Positions 1 to 64,000 of a stretch of DNA of 64,000 nucleotides are shown piece after piece. Position 1 is the first letter of the stretch; each line of letters opens with the position of its first letter. Origin of the DNA: Acanthochlamys bracteata (lineage: Eukaryota > Streptophyta > Magnoliopsida > Pandanales > Velloziaceae); the NCBI GenBank assembly GCA_019914995.1, contig CM034126.1, forward strand, positions 6,143,001-6,207,000, in the 5' to 3' direction. Position numbers and translations under genes: made by a program. Under the pieces are notes generated by a model that made no database searches, was not told the DNA's origin, and saw only the letters and a list, made by a program, of their open reading frames with translations.

Positions 1-3000
1 GAGGATTCCTAAGGAGTGTCCATTGTGAAGGGTGTCAGATTTTCGTTTGAAATATTGAAAAGAAATAGTGTTTTCTACGATTAAGTAGTACTTTTTGAAC
101 CTTTTTGTTATATGGCATACTTCATTTCCAGGTTCCCTGCAATGTATCTTTGTTCTGTGGAATAATTGTTTCGTATATGGAAATAGCAATCCGCATGTGT
201 TGCGTAAGGTTAACATAAAGAACAAGAGTTTTGCTAGCAACTGTAGGATTTCTGTTTTTCTTTGGCAAGTAAATGAAAGTTGACGCATGTTACTTATATT
301 GAACATGGTCAGTTATTAGTAACAGTATCTTCTGCTGGTCAGTTTTTAGATCTGCCATTTTAAACGTATATGTCATAATAGATAATTGACCTTCTTAAAT
401 TAATAATGCCGTTTGCAACTTTACTTTTTGTTCTTACTAAAAATTATGAACCAAGTTAGATACAACAATTTCAATTGTGAGATTATTAATTAAATGTAAA
501 TTGTCTTCTTTATATAAAAATTCTGTGATTGATTAGTTATGTGACGTGATTCTTTGTTGCAAGTTGCTAGATGGGACTCAGTGATAATTACATTAATAAT
601 ATTTTATAAGTTGATAGATACCTTCTGAGCAGATTTTGGTTGATACTTTGTTGCCAGTTGATACCATGGAAACAAGATTTTGGTTTACTTCAGCAGCTGA
701 GCAGCGTGCAACCGAGCTATCATCTATATGATACCACTGTTTCAATTCACTCCATACTTAGTCTGACCTGATTAAGATTAAAATAAGACAACAAATTTGT
801 CTGTGGTATCTGAAAGCCTGTACCAAAACGTCAGAGTAATGCATGTAGAGAATCTTTTTTCAATACTTACTTGTTTATGTACAGAATTCCTTTTGTACAT
901 CTAAATATTTTATGGATGTTAAACTGAAAAACAATATTAAAAAAGTATGATCCAGATGGTTCAAACGATCCTAAGCCTTCAACACCTGAATTATTTGAAA
1001 TAAAAGGGAGGAGGATCACAAATTTATCAACTAATGTTACTCTAAAGAAGAAACAGAGATATAAATTTTCTAATCGCGAGTATTTCCTGCATCTATTTCG
1101 CGAGTTTAGTTTCTCAAGTATGTCAGATACTAAATTTCCTCTAGGAGTAGAATATACAATCAGTTCATACAAGAATATTGCTGTGATAATAAAGTATTGG
1201 TAGTTTGACAAAAGCTCTTGGGTGGTTAGAGACTTAGAATATTCAGTTTTGGCAACCGAGTCGTGAATACTGACAAAGATGATGACATATAATTCTTCAA
1301 ATTATCGTGCTTGACTTTTATTTTTTTGTTTGGCTACGCAGGTTGGACTTTGGTGATGGTGACTCTTCTATAATCCTCCACAATCATATGGTCTAAGCCA
1401 TTGCGTTTCTTTTACTTTTGCTTGATGATATTCTGAATTAAATCGACAACTTGCTGTTTTAAAAATAAGAGTTAGAAGTTATCTTGAGTACATGATGTAA
1501 TTTGTAATTAATAGTTATGCGTTACTGCATCGTCAAGTAAATAGTTTGTGTTGGAGAAATACAATAATAGAAAATTTAATTAAAATAAAACACCTAGAAG
1601 TTTTCAACCTTCATATCAGAAAGTCCAATATAACTAAAAAAACTTAAGCTAATAGGATTATCGAACTCTCTAATATATTAATCCTATTTTTATTTTTATT
1701 CACTATTAAACTAATATACTTATTCTTTATCCAACGGTTTGGGTTTGTTATAATTTGCTTTCCCCATTTCAAGATCAAGAGGATGGTATATTGTCTCAGA
1801 TTGGATTGCCAATATTAACGAAGACGGTGTAACCTGATATGCAGCAATTCTATGTACAAGGATATAGTTTTATTACAATGTTAACTTTTATTATTTTTGT
1901 AAAGAAAAAAATTGGCAAGTGTTTAGGGAAAAAATTTGAAATTGCAATTGTACTTGAAGTGTTTGCTTTTTATTCTATTGTTCAGTTAATGTTTGAATGA
2001 GTTGTTTGCTTTTTCTTGCTGTATGCAGATCACTGATAGTGAGACGGCTAACAAGTTTGAAGACATTGCAGGTAACAACTAGTTGACTGTGAGAGCTGAC
2101 ATATTGTATACAAATTCTTAAAACAGTTTAGCATCTATATGGAACTGGAATCTTCATGCGCCGCAAATAAAAACTCACAGCACCTTGTTTTCAGGTACGG
2201 ATGTAATTAGAATAAAATACACCAGCAGGTCATAGTCGCATTTGGTGATGTTATTTGCATCAATTGATAATAAGTTGATGAAAGTATAATGGCAAGCATT
2301 ATATCTCATCACTTTATTATTTATTCATCCTGAGACCTACATATTATACGCAAAGGGTATTCTCATCCTTTAAGCAAACCGAGAGATGGCTTTTGACAGT
2401 TTCTAAAAGAAATAATGAAGATTTCTCTATCAAGATCTCAATCAAAGAGAAATTTGTTATTGATTCTTTAAACAAAACTTCTTCAAATGTAACAAGGTTA
2501 AGATACTTGGCATTCGAATCTCCTTCATTTGAATATCCCTAGCAAGCCTGGCCGCAAAACATATAGACAACGTGGCTCGTTCTAATCTTCCCTTTCCGGT
2601 GAAGTCAACTGTCCTTGTTGCTGAAGATTGGAGATCATCAAAGTCAACTTGCAAACCTTCCATTTCTATACATTATCCGTAGTTCATCATATTAATTATC
2701 ATAAAGTAAATTAGATTTCAATCGCTGATGTTGTCCTACCTCCTAAACAATAACTATATCTCTAAACCGCCAACGTCAGGCTCCATGTTACAAGCGAACG
2801 AAGATGTTCATGCTATGAGCTTCATTCAGAAAACACAGATATCAACATCTACCTATTGTCATATAGCCTCTGTTAGTCGTTTATTTTGAAGAGTTGTCTC
2901 TAAAGAAAAGAACCGTTTTACTAACAGTACAATATAAGTACACGTAAGATAGATAACCTGTACTTAAACAATCTTTTCCATCTCTCTGATTATATCAAAC

Positions 3001-3989
3001 AACATTGAACTCTGCATGCCTGCAGGTCTAACCATAAATGAAAACTGGAACTTTTTTTTTTAATAGTTACTTGAGGCTTATGATCTAGGTTTGTTCCTAT
3101 TGCTGTATGCATTTTTTCTGATTGCTTTTCCCTTCCCGTTTTACCCAAGACATTGCATTCGTATTGGATGACAATCATGACATCCAATATATTATATTTT
3201 CTACGGATTATAGTGAAAATGAGCAATTTAGTCATTTTTAACTTCACATGCAATGCAAAAGATTGTTTCGCAACTTGAGTTGTCAAATTTTAGATGTTAT
3301 TCCCAGTAATAATAATTGCTGCATCTAGTACTCACACAAATTTCCCTAAAGACTACCACCAGTAAGAGAAATGCTAATGACTAATAGGATAGGAAGTTGT
3401 AAAATTTCTGATTTTGCTTATTGGTTGCCGAGTTTAAATGTTCTGAAATTGATCTAAATTTACTGCAAAGATTTAAGTTTACGATGTTATGTGGTAAGAA
3501 TTTATTCATACGAAGATCAACAGAATCTTTAAGCTTCAAGTGACTTGAAACAGTCGATCGGTGTTCAAAGTGGGTGAGATTCATTAAATAGCCTTCTTTG
3601 AAATTTTTAAGAAGTTACTGGTACCAAGAAGTCCTAGAAATCCTAGGTTCTTCTGCCTTTGCATCAATCACCACATAATAGGTGCTTGACGAAATTTATC
3701 TACCTATTTGCTGTCTTTTTTTTTCTAATGAGATTGAGATTGTTAGGCTATAATGTGTACCTAAACCTAAATTATAGTTTTCAATCAATTCGAATGAAAC
3801 TGATTCCGTCGCAACTATACAGAACATATTTACATACGAACTAATGTTGAGTTCTATATAACACACGAGCTATTACTATGAGATCAAGTTGAAAATTTAT
3901 TTTTTGAGATCATCTTATGCGAAAGGGAACATGCAACGCTGAGAACAAAAGGCACCAACGCAATAATGTAACGATGTGTAAGATATGAA
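1..3989. other. AT-rich stretch with no identifiable gene
   Basis: No reading frame here has recognisable similarity, and the open frames are short (under 115 codons) and low in coding character. A short exon-like segment at about 2028-2071, preceded by a CAG acceptor-like site and followed by GGTAAC, could be part of an unrecognised gene but has no partner exons I can identify. The stretch is the left flank of the copia insertion. Confidence 0.5.
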
Positions 3990-3994
3990 GATTC

Positions 3995-4187
3995 TGTTGG
4001 CGTGAGTCAACAATATATTATTTTAAATATTTTTTCTTAGAATTATATTTTATTCTGAATATTTTTCTTAGAATTATATTTAGATATTTTTTTTTATTAG
4101 AAACTCTCCTTATTTAGATTTATAAGGAGTCTATATATATGTACTTATATTGAATGATAAGAATAAGATTGAAAGAGTTTTTCATCT
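3995..4187 (+). repeat. 5' LTR of the copia element
   Basis: Begins TGTTGGCGTGAG and ends TTTTTCATCT, directly followed by the primer-binding site. It contains a TATATATA run near 4132 that could serve as promoter. The right LTR has the same length and aligns without gaps. Confidence 0.95.
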
Positions 4188-4200
4188 TGGTACCAGAGCA
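4188..4200 (+). other. Primer-binding site (tRNA-iMet type)
   Basis: TGGTACCAGAGCA lies immediately after the LTR. It differs by one base from the usual plant copia site TGGTATCAGAGC, complementary to the 3' end of initiator tRNA-Met. Confidence 0.9.
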
Positions 4201-4377
4201 AAACCCTATATCTGCTTGCCGCCGTCGTGGAGAAAACGACTGTGACGGTCAGATTCCGACCAAACTATCCATTGCGATCGTGGAGGCACGATTATACCGG
4301 TTAGAAATTCCGACCAAAACAAGTCCGGTACTTTAATCGGATTAGATCCATTGGAAAAAAAAAAAATTTTCACGCTT

Positions 4378-56003: not shown

Positions 56004-56721
56004 ATGGGCATGCTGGGAAGAACAATGGCGGCACCGTTGCTTTTCTTGAACCTTGCCATGTACATTGTTGTCATTGGGTTCGCTAGTTGGGCTCTCAACC
56101 ACTTCATCAACGGCCAAACCAACCATCCTGGTATACAATTAACCAAATTCCAATGTCTTCTTTTTCTGCAATGAAGCTTTTACTTCCGAAAAAAATCTAG
56201 AAGTTACTGAAAATTGTTTTCTTGACTTAACAGGTTTGGCTGGAAACGGTGCCACATTCTACTTCCTAGTGTTTGCAATCTTGGCTGGTGTGGTCGGTGT
56301 GGTATCCAAGCTCGCCGGTGCACTACATCTCAGGGCATGGAGAAGCGACAGCCTCGCCGGTGCTGCCTCTGCTTCACTCATTGCATGGGCAATCACCGCT
56401 CTTGCCATGGGGTAATCAATCAATCATTAACAAATCTAATTTCTCATCTCAATCACAAACAAAATTTGGGATATATCTAATTAACGTTAATTATTGGGAT
56501 TTGAATGTAGGTTGGCATGCAAAGAAATCCACCTTAGCGGATACAGAGGATGGAGGCTCAGGGTACTTGAGGCACTCATAATCATCTTGACATTCACGGA
56601 ACTACTCTACCTGATGTTGCTCCATGCCGGAATCTTTAACAGCAGATACGGGCCTGGATATAGAGACCCTGTCTACGGTGGTGCCGCCGGTGAACCGGTG
56701 AAGGGGACTGCAAGAGTGTAG
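56004..56721 (+). CDS. AWPM-19/PM19-like membrane protein, copy 1
   Basis: Three exons: 56004-56130, 56234-56411 and 56511-56721, with GT-AG introns of 103 and 99 bp; product 171 residues, normal for the family. Four hydrophobic spans are visible: LLFLNLAMYIVVIGFASWAL, FYFLVFAILAGVVGVVSKLA, SLIAWAITALAMGLACK and LIIILTFTELLYLMLLHAGI. Family hallmarks are INGQTNHPG, LHLRAWRSDSLAGAAS, GYRGWRLRVLEA and FNSRYGPGYRD. PM19-type proteins sit in the plasma membrane, accumulate in seeds and under ABA or drought, and in rice one was reported to help ABA uptake; transport by this copy is inference. The start is the second in-frame ATG, MGMLGRTMAAPL, which best matches the family's N-terminus; a longer in-frame start at 55962 also exists. 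Confidence 0.92.
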
Positions 56722-58970
56722 ACATGAATTTAAATGTGTGAAATTCGTTGCTTTAGCTTTTGCTTTTGGTTGTGTCGTGTGTTATTTGCCTCGTACAAGT
56801 ATCTGTCAGCATTATTAGCTATAAAGTGCTCGATTAATTCTGCAATTTGTGAACGCAGTCATTTCTTATTAGTCCAATTATCATAAGATGTGATTATTGT
56901 TGATAAATTTATTAAAAAAATTTAAGTTTAAAATAATTCCTAGCAGTTATAAATGCTTAACCTCTGTGATATCGTTATATTTAAATCAGAGGTAATAGAA
57001 ACGCACAAACAATTCACTAGCAAATTGCTTCTCAAGCAAAATTATTATTACAAGCAGGTTACAACAATAGAACATAAATTATCGAATAGGTCGTACATCA
57101 AATCGGGTTCGAATTTTTAACAATTACATTAATATAAAATCTATAATAATGCGGAGTAAACTATTTGCTTTATAAAATAAGTAATTATTATTCTAGAATA
57201 AAATAAATTATTTAGTTTAAAAATAAATAGATTATTAAATTCTAAACAAATAGATAATAAAGTTAAATTTATATTTTGGTTCAATCTGTTTTAGTATTGC
57301 GTGATAAATTTAAATTTTTTTAAAAACTAATTAATTATGAAAGAAAAGAGCCTAAATAATAATAAATATGCTACCAAAATTGTTAGTAAATAATATAAAA
57401 GTAAATCTTTTTTAATAGTTTCGTTCAGAAATTTTATTCACTTACTTTACTGTTAACTGTATAAATAATTTCGATCGTAGAAGATCTAAACCCAAACCTC
57501 TACTGCTATCCATTGGATTTTTAGAAGATCGTTTGAAAATACTTCAAATAAAAATTTATCTGAAAAAAGTTATTATACAAACTTTCAAAAATTAAATTGA
57601 ACTTTTGATTAAAACAAATATATATATAGTATATATTTAAAAATTTTTTTAATATTGTATAATATTTATAAGAAAATAAAATTTAAAATGAAATTTTATC
57701 GGTACTGCCAAACGATATATTAATTAGAGTACATAAAATACATCAAGCACGAATCATTTGCCACTACTGGCAAGTAACAAAAACGTAAAAATAGAAATTG
57801 TAGGGAAACTAAGTAGAAAATTAAAACACGAATTAAAAAGAAAAGCACTCATAACAGATAACCTTCTAACCCGAATCACTATCTAACTTGCTTCAATTAT
57901 AAATAAACTTGATAAAAAGTAATAGACATATTCGTTTAAAATAAGAAGAAAGAATTATAAACACCTCTGGAGATTGCGCCTAATATAAAGAATTATATAT
58001 TCTGGTTTGAAACGCACGCAGCATCATTACTTTTGGATTGGTTTCAGTAATTCCGCGAACCAAAGTTAACCTAAAAGCAATTAATCAAACAAAAAATTAA
58101 TAGAATATTTGAAATTACCTATAACAAACGATTTTTCTAAAATAAAAAATATTTAAAAAAATATTTTAACATAAAAGGTTATTATTTTTATTTCAAAATA
58201 TACATACAAATTAACAAAAAAATTTATTTATATTTTTGTAATTTAAGATAATTTATAAATATTAAATAATAATTTGTTTTTAAGAATAACAAGTACTGCT
58301 CTAAGCGGCGCCAAATGTAGGAATCTTGTACTTATTAAATACATTGTGCCGATAGTTGGTGAGAAACTAATCAATAAGAAAGCAGTACCTATTGCCCAAC
58401 ACGTTTAGCTCCTTTTGAGTGAACGAATGCTGATACATATCCAGTGCACGTTTGACAATAAAGTTTTTACTACCTTTTCTATTACAAATAAATATTTTAC
58501 TTTTCAAAATATGTTTTACCATACTTAAAAAATAGTAAACTTTAAAAATATATAAATTATACAACATCAAACTTTTTACAAATTCTATAATAATTTTTTT
58601 TTCAAACAAATTTCGAATGCCCTCTTAATCAAATTTTGGTTGGGAAGTGTTTTCAGTCTGCAACCAGTGCAATAGTCTGGAATATCTTGCAGAGTTCCTA
58701 CTAAAATAATACAAAAAAAAATATAAAAGAACATAACCACGGGGAGTTTTGCTTAAATTTTGCAGCACTCCCAACACCTAATTAGGCAGCACTATAGCAA
58801 CCAATAAGACCAACAATAATGAACAATAATAATATCAAACAATAGTTATCAATAAATTAACAATATCAAACCATTTATCAATACAACAGCATCAATACAT
58901 CCATCAACAACATCAATAATAACAAGCTAGACGAATGGAGAACAACTTGATGATTTATGAGAACCTATTG
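56722..58970. other. Intergenic DNA between the PM19 genes, left part
   Basis: AT-rich. It contains an AT-rich repeat-like block at 58120-58290. No gene is recognised. Confidence 0.45.
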
Positions 58971-59079
58971 AACTAATTTACACTGCAAAGATATTTCGAA
59001 GATGTCGAACATCCAGATAAGAGAAAACAAAAATGGTCCTGCCAGATCAACCACTCCACAACAAAAATCAAACTCATAC

Positions 59080-59770
59080 CATGCAAGCAACTACAATTCT
59101 CAGCTTTCTTGCGCGCAACTTCTAACACAACGTCAATTAATTCAGCTCCTTCCGGTATGCCCTTCGCCCAGTTGTTACCTGCACTAGACTGCCCAACAAT
59201 GAAGTTATCCGGCCTGAAGATCTGTCCATACGAATGAGATCGGATCCTCGTACTTGGTTCGAGATCTATTAGAACGGCATGGGCAACATCGATGATCGAG
59301 TTACCATTGACGGAGTTGATCTCACGATTTATGGCATGTATCACCATGGATGACTTCAATTTGCGGGCCGAGCCATTGCGGCGAAGTCGGAGTGCATAAG
59401 TGTCCTACTTCGGCTTCGGTAACAGGTCCATTTGGTGCTTCCTCTGCGCTTCCGCCATGTAATCGCTGCCTTCAAGGAGGTACTCCATTACTGCGGCGGC
59501 TTCGATTTGCTTGGGGTGTTGTTTCAATTCGTGCTTCAACCGATTTGTGAAATCCAGCTTCCCGTTCATGGCTTCACAAAAGATCACCGATAGTAATAAT
59601 TGATAGCAATACAAGAACATTTGCTTCGTAGCAAACCACAGTTAGAGATCTGAATCGCTGCTATAGGTTCCAGTTGAATCAATCCCATGTTCAACACAAA
59701 CTACTTTCCAAAACTTCTCTCCAATCTAATTTTCACGTTGTCCTTCCTGAATGTGGAGAACCTCTCTCAT
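59080..59770 (-). pseudogene. Chimeric beta-tubulin/PAL gene-fragment pseudogene
   Basis: From the ATG at 59770, the minus strand encodes the beta-tubulin N-terminus (MREVLHIQ..., then EHGIDSTG), with two in-frame stops at glutamine positions. Near residue 55 (about 59618) it switches to phenylalanine ammonia-lyase coding sequence ([27 protein letters not shown], and in another frame [13 protein letters not shown], then [10 protein letters not shown]). Near 59280 it switches back to beta-tubulin ([55 protein letters not shown]) and ends at 59080 on a GTATGA splice donor, where plant tubulin intron 1 begins. The remaining tubulin exons are absent; intron-like sequence continues to about 58986. 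It lies between two intact PM19 genes. It cannot encode either enzyme or tubulin. Confidence 0.85.
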
Positions 59771-59879
59771 GTTCGCCGAAGAAATGAACACCTCCACCAT
59801 GGCTGACAAGGAAAAAGCAAAAACAAAGAAGGCGAATTTAAGATCTGGCCTGGGAGAGAGTGAAGATGAAGACATTTTT

Positions 59880-60110
59880 CGTTCAATTTCACTCTATTCA
59901 AAAGATTTATTTATTTTATATTTTTTAATAAATTTTAATAATATAATATAAAAAATTTTATTTAAAATTTAAAATATAAAAAATTTATACAAAAATTTTA
60001 TTATTAAAAATTATAATATTAATTTTTTATAAAAAATAAAATTTTAAAATAAAATAAAATATTTTTTGTTTTAAAAAGTGCTACTTTAAAAATATTACTA
60101 ATTTATTATT
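59880..60110. repeat. AT-rich block next to the chimeric pseudogene
   Basis: Nearly pure AT with TTTTTTAATAAATTTTAATAA words, matching the other AT-rich MITE-like blocks. It directly flanks the 5' side of the tubulin fragment. Confidence 0.35.
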
Positions 60111-60774
60111 ATCATTTTTATAAGTGATCCGGACTGACGATCGTCAATCAATATAAAATCCGTCCAAACTAGGTCTGGTCATAACGGGTCAAAAATATAA
60201 TCGATTGTTTTATAAATTCAAATTAATTTTATATCCGGAGAAAAAAATTTCGAATCTCCAAAACAGTGCATACATGTCTGCCAACACCGGGTTGATGCCA
60301 ACACTGGTTTTGATGCCGAGTAGATTGTGCCGTTACGTAAAGCAAAAAAATCATGTTGATGGTGAATTTGACATAGCATATCTGCTTTGTCATCCCTTCT
60401 TTCGTCACTACTCCCATCTTATATCAATACCTAGTTGGTCAAAAGATATATAATACAACATTTGATAAAACTGGGATTCTTGAAGAGATAACAAATATTA
60501 GCATCGTGTATAATCAATTCGGATGCTGTAAAGTACAGCAAAAATATCTCATCTTTACTTTGCATTGCTGAAGGGCAATGCAAGGTAAGAAAATGCGGCG
60601 GCAAATCCTCCTTTTAAACCAACAAGGATTATAATCTGAAATGTTCTGTGATAGATATGAATTAGCTACATCATTTCATACTTTTAAACAACTCAGAAAC
60701 CAATTTCGTCTTTGTGAGAAGTTACCCGTGCTTTCGTTTTCACCAAGAGAACTCTGCCGGATACCTTGTGGCTG

Positions 60775-61666: not shown

Positions 61667-62413
61667 TTATATTGGAGTTCCTTTAACCGGTTGACCGCCG
61701 TATCCTGCGCCAGTGTCCCTGTAGCCGGGTCCGTACCTGCTGTTGAAGACTCCTGCGTGGATCAGGAGAAGGTAGAGAAGCTCGGTGAAGGTCAAGATGA
61801 TGATGAATGCCTCAAGAACCCTGAGCCTCCAGTTCCTGTATCCACCAAGATGAATCTGCTTGCACGCCAACCTGCAAGATTAAAATTGAGGAGCAATCTT
61901 TCAGCGCACGTCCAGTTCGAAGCAATCATCATAACCCACTAGCTGCTAACCAATCTCTGCCGCATTTACTTAAAACAAGAACAAGTTGAGATCCGTTAAT
62001 TACCCCATAGCAAGAGCGGTGATGGCCCACGCAATAAGAGAAGAGGATGCAGCAGAGGCAAGGCTATCGCTCCTCCATGCCCTGTGGTGGAGGGCAGCAG
62101 CGAGTTTAGATACCACGCCGACAACACCGGCCAAAATGGCAAATACTAGGAAGTAAAATGTCGCGCCATTTCCGGCCAACCCTGCAAATTAAGCAGCAAT
62201 TGACACTTTTGAGAGATCAATTCTAACTCAGCAACTAGAAGGATGCAGCTATGATCCGAATCAACCGTAAAGAACATCTTGTATTGTCAGTAACATACCA
62301 GGATAATTAAGCTGGCCGTTGATGAAGTGATTGATGACCCAACTTGCGAATCCAATGACGATTATGTACATAAGAAGGTTCAAGATCATCAATGGTGCTG
62401 CGGCGGCCCTCAT
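61667..62413 (-). CDS. AWPM-19/PM19-like membrane protein, copy 2
   Basis: Three exons: 62413-62299, 62181-62004 and 61871-61667, with introns of 117 and 132 bp; product 165 residues. Exon 2 is 178 bp, as in the other copy, and both splice phases agree, so the two genes are duplicates. Its N-terminus is MRAAAAPLMILNLLMYIIVI, shorter than in copy 1. Shared hallmarks are INGQ, GNGATFYFLVFAIL, RAWRSDSLAS, GYRNWRLRVLEAFIIILTF and FNSRYGPGYRD. Four hydrophobic spans place it in the plasma membrane. The gene is convergent with copy 1 (tail to tail, about 4.9 kb apart). The frame is intact, and promoter elements matching copy 1 suggest ABA or seed-stage expression. Confidence 0.92.
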
Positions 62414-62599: not shown

Positions 62600-64000
62600 T
62601 GTTTTACGTTATGCAATGTGTGGTGGGTCTTTCTTCACGTTTCTTCTCGGTTCTTCACGGTTGTTCTGGATGGATAAATTTGGGATTCCCGGCACCACCT
62701 CAACGGCCTTCACAATTTCACGTATCACCTATTAATTATTAGCTCTAATCTTTTTCTGAACACATGTTTAAGTTTAACCAGATAAACTGACACCAAAATT
62801 TTGATATTTATTAATTAATTAATTCTTATGATAGGAAAACGGATCATACACTCTCACGTACTTAATGCTTATTTAGTACTCGTTACTCAAAGACTTATTA
62901 AACTTTACATTCTCTTTTAAGCTTAAAAGTAAAAAGTTTAACTCCTATATAATCTTTGTTTTAAATATTCATAAATTTAATTTTTTACTTAAAATTATAG
63001 TTTGTGACATATTTGTCAGATTCGGATCAAAAAAATTATTGATCCGACTGAGATAAATTCGTCTGAATTTAGAAAAATTTTATGTATAATTGATCCGTTT
63101 CGATCCGTCATAATTCACTTCAATCTAATCAATCCGTCCGTCCGAATCAAATCGAATTGAATAAAATTAAAAAAATTAATTGAAAAAATTTAATTTATGA
63201 TATATTTAATATAAAAATAATTATTAATAATTTTATGTTGAAAAATAATATATACTTTAGATTTTATATTTGGATATGATAATTTAAAAATATAATTAAT
63301 TATATCTTATTTTGTAAATATAATTATTAGTAATTTTTAAAGTTTTATTTGTAAAATATTCAAACTCAAATTTTTTTATTATAAATATTTAATGTTATTA
63401 TTATTGTTGGTATGATAATATCATGATGATAATATTTTAATTTTTTCTGTAATTATTATTATTATATATATATAGTAATATTATAGTAAACATACTTTAA
63501 TTTTTTCTTATGATTACTGCTGCTATTATTGTTGATAATGTTATGATACCAATAGAATTCTTATTATGATTGTTGTTATTATTGTCGAAAATGTCTTAAT
63601 ATTAATCCAACGATTCGATCGGTGATCCGGCGAGTTAATTTGAGATTTAACTCGTATAATTTTTGAGTTCGACATTCGGTACTATTGATATTCAAATAAA
63701 AATTGATTACTTTATTTCAACAGCTATATATTTCAAATAAAAATTAAATCTAGCACTATATTAAAAAATGACTACTTTATTTTCACCTATTCAATAATAG
63801 TAATTTTTAATTACTCTAAAATACTAGCACAAAAATTAAGTCTTCTTCAAAATCAATTTTTAAAAAATTTATTTTATTTTTATTTTACGAAACTAAATCA
63901 CATCACACGCCAAGTATCTTATATCTTATAGTTTTTTTAATAATCTAACGTCTATATTAGATAGCGATAATATTAAATTTGAAGTTAGAATAGATTTTAA
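62600..64000. other. AT-rich flank with no gene recognised
   Basis: No coding sequence is recognised. 63020-63660 has GATCCG and TTCGGATC-like words at both sides of an AT core and may be a decayed non-autonomous transposon, but clear ends are lacking. Confidence 0.4.

Follow-up and report, generated by a model that had tools for sequence, protein, structure and literature searches.

What brought part of a phenylalanine ammonia-lyase (PAL) gene into the first exon of a beta-tubulin gene, and what kind of DNA carries the result? We examined this question in a window of 64,000 nucleotides (C1:6143001-6207000 of a 195.5-Mb genome, a plant's to judge by its genes), in which beta-tubulin exon 1 lies on the minus strand with its ATG at 59770, its end at 59080 and a GT donor at 59079-59078, and the PAL piece sits within this exon (59080-59770, minus strand). 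The reading that we favor, to which as a whole account we assign a probability of roughly 0.75, is that of a decayed, non-autonomous hAT-type transposon, which acquired its host DNA stepwise (a Pack-hAT). The locus adds a further case to a familiar type of gene scrambling and does not represent a novel gene.

The nested arrangement was first proposed in a preliminary description of this DNA, and it is upheld here by Pfam, PDB sequence search and alignment alike, with PAL lying inside beta-tubulin exon 1, which continues up to the intron donor on the minus strand. In the Pfam search, Tubulin is matched at 58973-59404 (E = 1e-9) and Lyase_aromatic at 59405-59641 (E = 3e-8), both on the minus strand, while a PDB sequence search with parts of the window returns PAL at 8.8e-18 and beta-tubulin at 6.7e-26. 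At the DNA level, the PAL part is closest in the genome to places on C17 (86-88%) and C9 (82%), and the tubulin parts to the tubulin genes of C3 (81%) and C5 (78%). The PAL match is thus significant, and the tubulin matches flank it on both sides, colinear with the C3 tubulin gene. The extent of the feature required revision, as the unit that is common to other loci is longer than first described, spanning 58762-59870, with a transposon-like 5′ end in addition at 60125-60256. The parts of the locus are as follows.

60125-60256, minus strand: hAT-like carrier 5′ end region (nhmmer with a 5′ profile from chimera-free training, E = 2.5e-7)
59885-60110, no strand assigned: AT-rich stretch (A+T 0.947)
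59771-59870, minus strand: tubulin leader, upstream of the ATG (alignment; a 5′ UTR by homology only)
59640-59770, minus strand: beta-tubulin exon 1, first part, from the ATG at 59770 (alignment; stop after 14 codons)
59640-59644, minus strand: 5′ joint, CAGCT in the donors and TAACT in the window copy (donor alignment)
59284-59639, minus strand: PAL segment, 356 bp (genome and PDB sequence searches, donor alignment)
59278-59283, minus strand: 3′ joint, CCCGTG in the donors and CCCATG in the window copy (donor alignment)
59080-59277, minus strand: beta-tubulin exon 1, second part, to the intron donor (Pfam, PDB sequence search, alignment)
59035-59079, minus strand: tubulin intron 1, first ~45 bp, boundary approximate (alignment with the C3 and C5 tubulin genes)
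58762-59034, minus strand: carrier body, common to tubulin-free loci (genome comparison)

Within this layout, positions 59645-59870 match the C3 tubulin gene at 79%. The stretch of 95% A+T at 59885-60110 has no counterpart in the alignment rows of C10, C19 and C16, and its part at 59905-60077 is similar to AT-rich repeats that occur in many of the fetched loci; we read this stretch as a later insertion between the carrier 5′ end and the tubulin leader. Extrapolated by eye, the outer 5′ terminus of the carrier would lie at about 60291, reading GTGTTGGCAGAC there. At the opposite extreme, the unit tail (58762-58784, minus strand) ends in GTGTTGGGAGTGCTGC, with GTGTTGGCAGTGCTGCC-like sequence in other copies, and by eye it resembles the 5′ terminus of the carrier family itself, which may point to a second end, nested or fused. 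Farther out, the chimera is flanked by sequences at 56028-56713 (plus strand) and 61672-62401 (minus strand) that were considered as long transposon ends and rejected, as they are really two inverted paralogous gene-like sequences. They have intron-like gaps, are members of a C1 cluster that has related matches on C2, and are presumably small membrane-protein genes, AWPM-19-like by eye.

The joints between the two genes can be read to the base. Between the microhomologies the PAL segment measures 356 bp, as compared with 358 in the nearest intact PAL gene that was inspected (C17); with them included it measures 367 bp (about 120 codons). It has displaced 50 bp of tubulin. The preliminary description had given about 110 codons of PAL and only a handful of replaced tubulin codons; the former figure was somewhat low, and the latter is about 17. 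Between the donor-type genes, the microhomology consists of CAGCT (5 bp) at the 5′ joint and CCCGTG (6 bp) at the 3′ joint, where random tubulin/PAL joints match over at least 5 bp in 0.6% and over at least 6 bp in 0.2% of 200,000 draws. At the 5′ (tubulin-to-PAL) joint the reading frame was shifted by one already at its origin, so a protein begun at the tubulin ATG would not enter PAL in frame, and a one-base insertion in the window copy masks this shift; the 3′ (PAL-to-tubulin) joint is in frame. In the fetched loci, the PAL-like genes nearest to the captured piece have open frames without interruption.

L012, 5657-7963, plus strand: PAL-like gene, open frame of 769 codons
L011, 1310-3538, minus strand: PAL-like gene, open frame of 743 codons
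L013, 2958-5312, minus strand: PAL-like gene, open frame of 785 codons

A third C17 PAL copy is without an internal stretch.

A DNA search of the genome yielded 20 matches at E <= 1e-3. Donor-type loci (PAL on C17 and C9, tubulin on C3 and C5) and further chimeric copies, for which the preliminary description had proposed to search, are both present: the tubulin-PAL-tubulin order is found in the same arrangement at four loci, namely C1 (the window), C7, C10 and C19. This sharing indicates that the fusion arose once and was then copied. Distances among the chimeras are 0.17-0.35 per block, and C10 and C19 have a further ~125 bp in common beyond the carrier body. The C19 and C7 copies are split by LTR-like inserts at different positions, in C7 within PAL; these inserts (L010, L014) are related to each other, with 2.5 kb in common at 91% and direct repeats of 136 and 143 bp.

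At a fifth locus, C16, the tubulin leader, exon 1, the start of the intron and the tail are all as in the chimeras, but the tubulin still has its original 50 bp. These are identical to the C3 tubulin gene at 42 of 50 positions, and since this is similar to the overall divergence of C16 from C3 (78-83%), a recent restoration by conversion is unlikely. In a tree of tubulin plus tail, C16 is placed with the tubulin genes and apart from the four chimeras with a support of 94. C16 represents the pre-capture state, a tubulin piece without PAL. At this locus (L021), the 3′ end repeat lies about 3 kb away and inverted (551-685, plus strand, versus 3549-4315, minus strand), a layout that looks as though part of the locus was inverted. 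The earlier proposal of DNA-level capture at the scale of fragments is borne out by the retained start of intron 1, by joints that fall on microhomology and by the chimera shared among four copies. An mRNA retrocopy is ruled against by the same intron 1 start, kept after exon 1.

To what, then, does the carrier belong? Past the ~45 bp of intron, the unit changes to sequence that is also found at tubulin-free loci on C5, C11, C7 (6.45 Mb), C3 and C20, with related carrier bodies at C8 and C7 (8.07 Mb). Two open frames near one relative yielded no family match that passed its cut-off, genome searches in which the query was just the 3′ flank of C10 or C19 recovered only C10 and C19 themselves, and plasmid records gave no match. 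The ~125-bp stretch of C10 and C19 resembles the 3′ end of a high-copy family, for which there were 594 first-look candidates (40 scored, 40/40 matching). In hAT termini, the second position is A and the fifth is G. Young members of this family are 732-822 bp long, start with C(A/C)TAGTT and end with AACTATG (n = 5 scored), and their 8-bp flanks are identical in four of five copies and agree at 7 of 8 letters in the fifth; the ends were first picked by eye, and a sixth fetched member with a degraded left end was left out. Target-site duplications of 8 nt are a hAT signature according to passages of PMC8903248.

A transposase relic provides a second point of reference. At C11:930991-934124 (L027/L037), hAT dimerisation (4.3e-27) and hAT-like RNase-H (4.8e-12) domains adjoin a 5′-type end, which scored 4.9e-11 before it joined the training set, and a weak 3′-type end follows about 3.1 kb on (0.051; 0.0022 in a smaller search). 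Of 316 candidate hAT dimerisation matches in the genome, 150 were scored, none of them tied to the chimeras; their abundance makes a transposase acting in trans plausible. The window itself also contains a separate old hAT-like copy at 63009-63690 on the plus strand, with both end types (5′ at 63009-63187, 3′ at 63593-63690), which was part of the training set of the final profiles and was also found independently with an earlier profile.

End profiles were trained on the young family plus four (5′) or three (3′) independent older copies and no chimera, and searched over 251,116 bases with reversed decoys, the best of which scored 0.02 (5′) and 1.1 (3′). In three of the four chimeras (C7 2.8e-16, window 2.5e-7, C19 0.0031) a 5′ end lies no more than 1 kb away with the side and strand as expected, and the same applies to C16 (1e-5). 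C10 has none within 4.9 kb, its nearest same-strand match (4.6e-6) being about 5.7 kb upstream. With the first, smaller 5′ profile, the same window end scored 0.0046, while C19 (0.58) and C16 (0.15) remained at the level of the best reversed decoy (0.33), and so for these two the 5′-end evidence depends on position and on the enlarged set of training sequences. An early two-sequence profile missed the C7 end. Between the 5′ end and the tubulin leader there are ~610 bp in C7 and ~255 bp in the window, with unexplained sequence between. The 3′ end is found in two of the four chimeras (C19 2.2e-11, C10 1.7e-9); the 3′ profile detected none at the window or C7 chimera and only a weak inverted piece (0.28) at C16. 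Among the chimeras, both ends occur together at C19 only, the 5′ end there being the weak one (0.0031).

Among the tubulin-free relatives, a 5′ end is so placed in five of seven, the exceptions being C11 and C8. C20 has both ends (5′ 1.5e-15, 3′ 0.003, smaller search), and the other 5′ ends score 5.5e-15 at C7 (6.45 Mb), 1.7e-11 at C5, 1.4e-6 at C3 and 0.0013 at C7 (8.07 Mb; smaller search), the last accompanied by another weak match on the opposite side. The 3′ end is weak at C7 (6.45 Mb; 0.18) and C3 (0.37). hAT-like ends are present at most copies, though not at every one. Target-site duplications were sought at C19, C7n and C20 with none found; none was found for any chimera, and searches at old copies gave nothing usable. 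The chimeras are best read as hAT-type, a putative label that draws on the end profiles and the reference family.

Could the chimera have spread without transposition? In such a scenario, a chance PAL filler was inserted in a tubulin copy, which was then multiplied by segmental or genome duplication. The microhomology at the joints fits repair alone, and the C1 neighborhood has a paralogous gene cluster on C2, which indicates that large duplications exist in this genome. However, when the flanks of the five tubulin-bearing copies were compared (blastn, E 1e-8, GC over 0.2, about 8-13 kb per copy), nothing was common beyond the unit except the inserts and AT-rich repeats; moreover, no copy lies on C2, and transposon-type ends flank several copies. 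We consider spread by duplication alone unlikely, although individual copies may owe their place to segmental duplication. Filler repair, which the preliminary description had listed beside transposon capture, fits the PAL insertion itself, as filler or template switch.

The carriers named in that description, Pack-MULE and Helitron, fare less well than a Pack-hAT, which better fits the 8-bp flanks and the hAT relic with similar ends. Pack-MULEs habitually capture 5′ gene ends, as would be the case here, and early alignments of C7 with C10 and C19 hinted at the long inverted repeats that, along with ~9-bp duplications and captured fragments, characterize these Mutator-like elements. The long-repeat signal proved non-specific, however: in shuffles, z was 4.9 for C7 and 6.8 for C7n, with 5.3 for one control orientation. 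The end family instead has 8-bp flanks in 5/5 scored members (one mismatch) and only short matching termini, and the transposase relic beside such an end is of the hAT type, making a Pack-MULE quite unlikely. Capture by a Helitron or an LTR retrotransposon is very improbable. Multi-gene chimeras are known for both (Bs1, in excerpts of PMC13317346), and in C10 and C19 the 3′ repeat may be taken to have the form TG...CA, an LTR-like trait. This repeat belongs, however, to the family with 8-bp flanks, for which reason its reading as an LTR or solo LTR was dropped; the start of the intron is retained; and the LTR-like inserts of C19 and C7, sitting at different places, are younger than the chimera. 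A Helitron would have a 5′ TC, a 3′ hairpin plus CTRR and no duplication; the shared end family does have duplications.

These copies have decayed. In the window copy, the tubulin frame is broken by a stop after 14 codons and by a second one at the 5′ joint, and the C10 and C16 copies are frameshifted. Relative to the C17 PAL gene, the PAL pieces of the four chimeras differ by 10-23% at first, 8-13% at second and 14-33% at third codon positions, as compared with 3, 0 and 26% for the C9 PAL gene. In tubulin, changes at second positions amount to 9-15% in the window, C10 and C19 copies and to 16% in C16, versus 1.5% between the two tubulin genes, in a comparison without C7 and with a C10 figure inflated by partial misalignment. 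The chimeras thus drift without evident coding constraint, and the stops, frameshifts and drift argue against a fusion protein. That the chimera yields such a protein or another functional product, for example a small RNA against tubulin or PAL, is hardly credible, as the in-frame PAL-to-tubulin joint that would favor it is preceded by one that never was in frame, the window copy has its two early stops, two copies are frameshifted, and changes fall at all codon positions. For annotators, the locus is a warning that tubulin or PAL matches at such places are not genes.

We infer template switching as the act that brought in PAL, transposition as the means of spread, and mobilization in trans. 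On the Pack-hAT account, the element would first have picked up the leader, exon 1 and the first ~45 bp of intron 1 from the 5′ end of a beta-tubulin gene, a state that C16 preserves. During repair or replication, the template would then have switched inside tubulin at the 5-bp match into PAL and returned at the 6-bp match, a switch that cost 50 bp of tubulin and brought in ~360 bp of PAL. Subsequently, the shared ends could have been acted on in trans by a hAT transposase, which relocated or duplicated the chimera so that it came to lie at four loci or more (C1, C7, C10 and C19), where the copies would have decayed without coding constraint, two of them being later split by LTR-like inserts. 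How transposons acquire host genes is still argued. In this one genome, relatives without tubulin, a tubulin stage (C16) and a tubulin-PAL stage (four copies) coexist, and these stages, together with donor-type genes and joints readable to the base, permit a direct comparison of template-switch and tandem-insertion models. The broader proposition that plant Pack-hATs grow by internal template switching, in which a second gene is written into a captured one at microhomology and not joined by fusion of neighboring elements, seems to us evenly balanced.

Our literature search found no paper joining the terms chimeric, phenylalanine ammonia-lyase, tubulin and Pack-MULE. Among the closest known systems, as far as excerpts of PMC13317346 describe them, rice Pack-MULEs likewise carry host fragments in a DNA transposon with terminal repeats, theirs being Mutator and ours having hAT-like ends, while maize Bs1 resembles the present case in fusing pieces of several unrelated host genes in a mobile element. 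Bs1 is a retrotransposon, however, whereas here intron sequence is kept and the ends resemble those of a DNA transposon. Also close are the Pack-hATs of rice and maize, which in passages of PMC8903248 are also non-autonomous hAT-type elements with host gene fragments; they have 8-nt duplications, whereas here 8 bp are seen in the young reference family and none was found at any chimera. In the model put forward in the same passages, tandem insertion followed by re-mobilization is how Pack-TYPE elements, whatever their superfamily, come by their DNA, in contrast to our PAL, which is nested in captured tubulin with microhomology at both joints. In this respect the chimera resembles the multicopy Pack-TIRs of animals, for which, in the portions of PMC8277862 used here, microhomology is reported at one breakpoint at least in 67.6% of those examined for it, gap filling and FoSTeST models are proposed, and a frog hAT element is described with a 291-bp 5′ UTR piece on three chromosomes. 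Those animal elements are described there with one host gene each, whereas here two are nested and the one-gene stage is preserved beside them.
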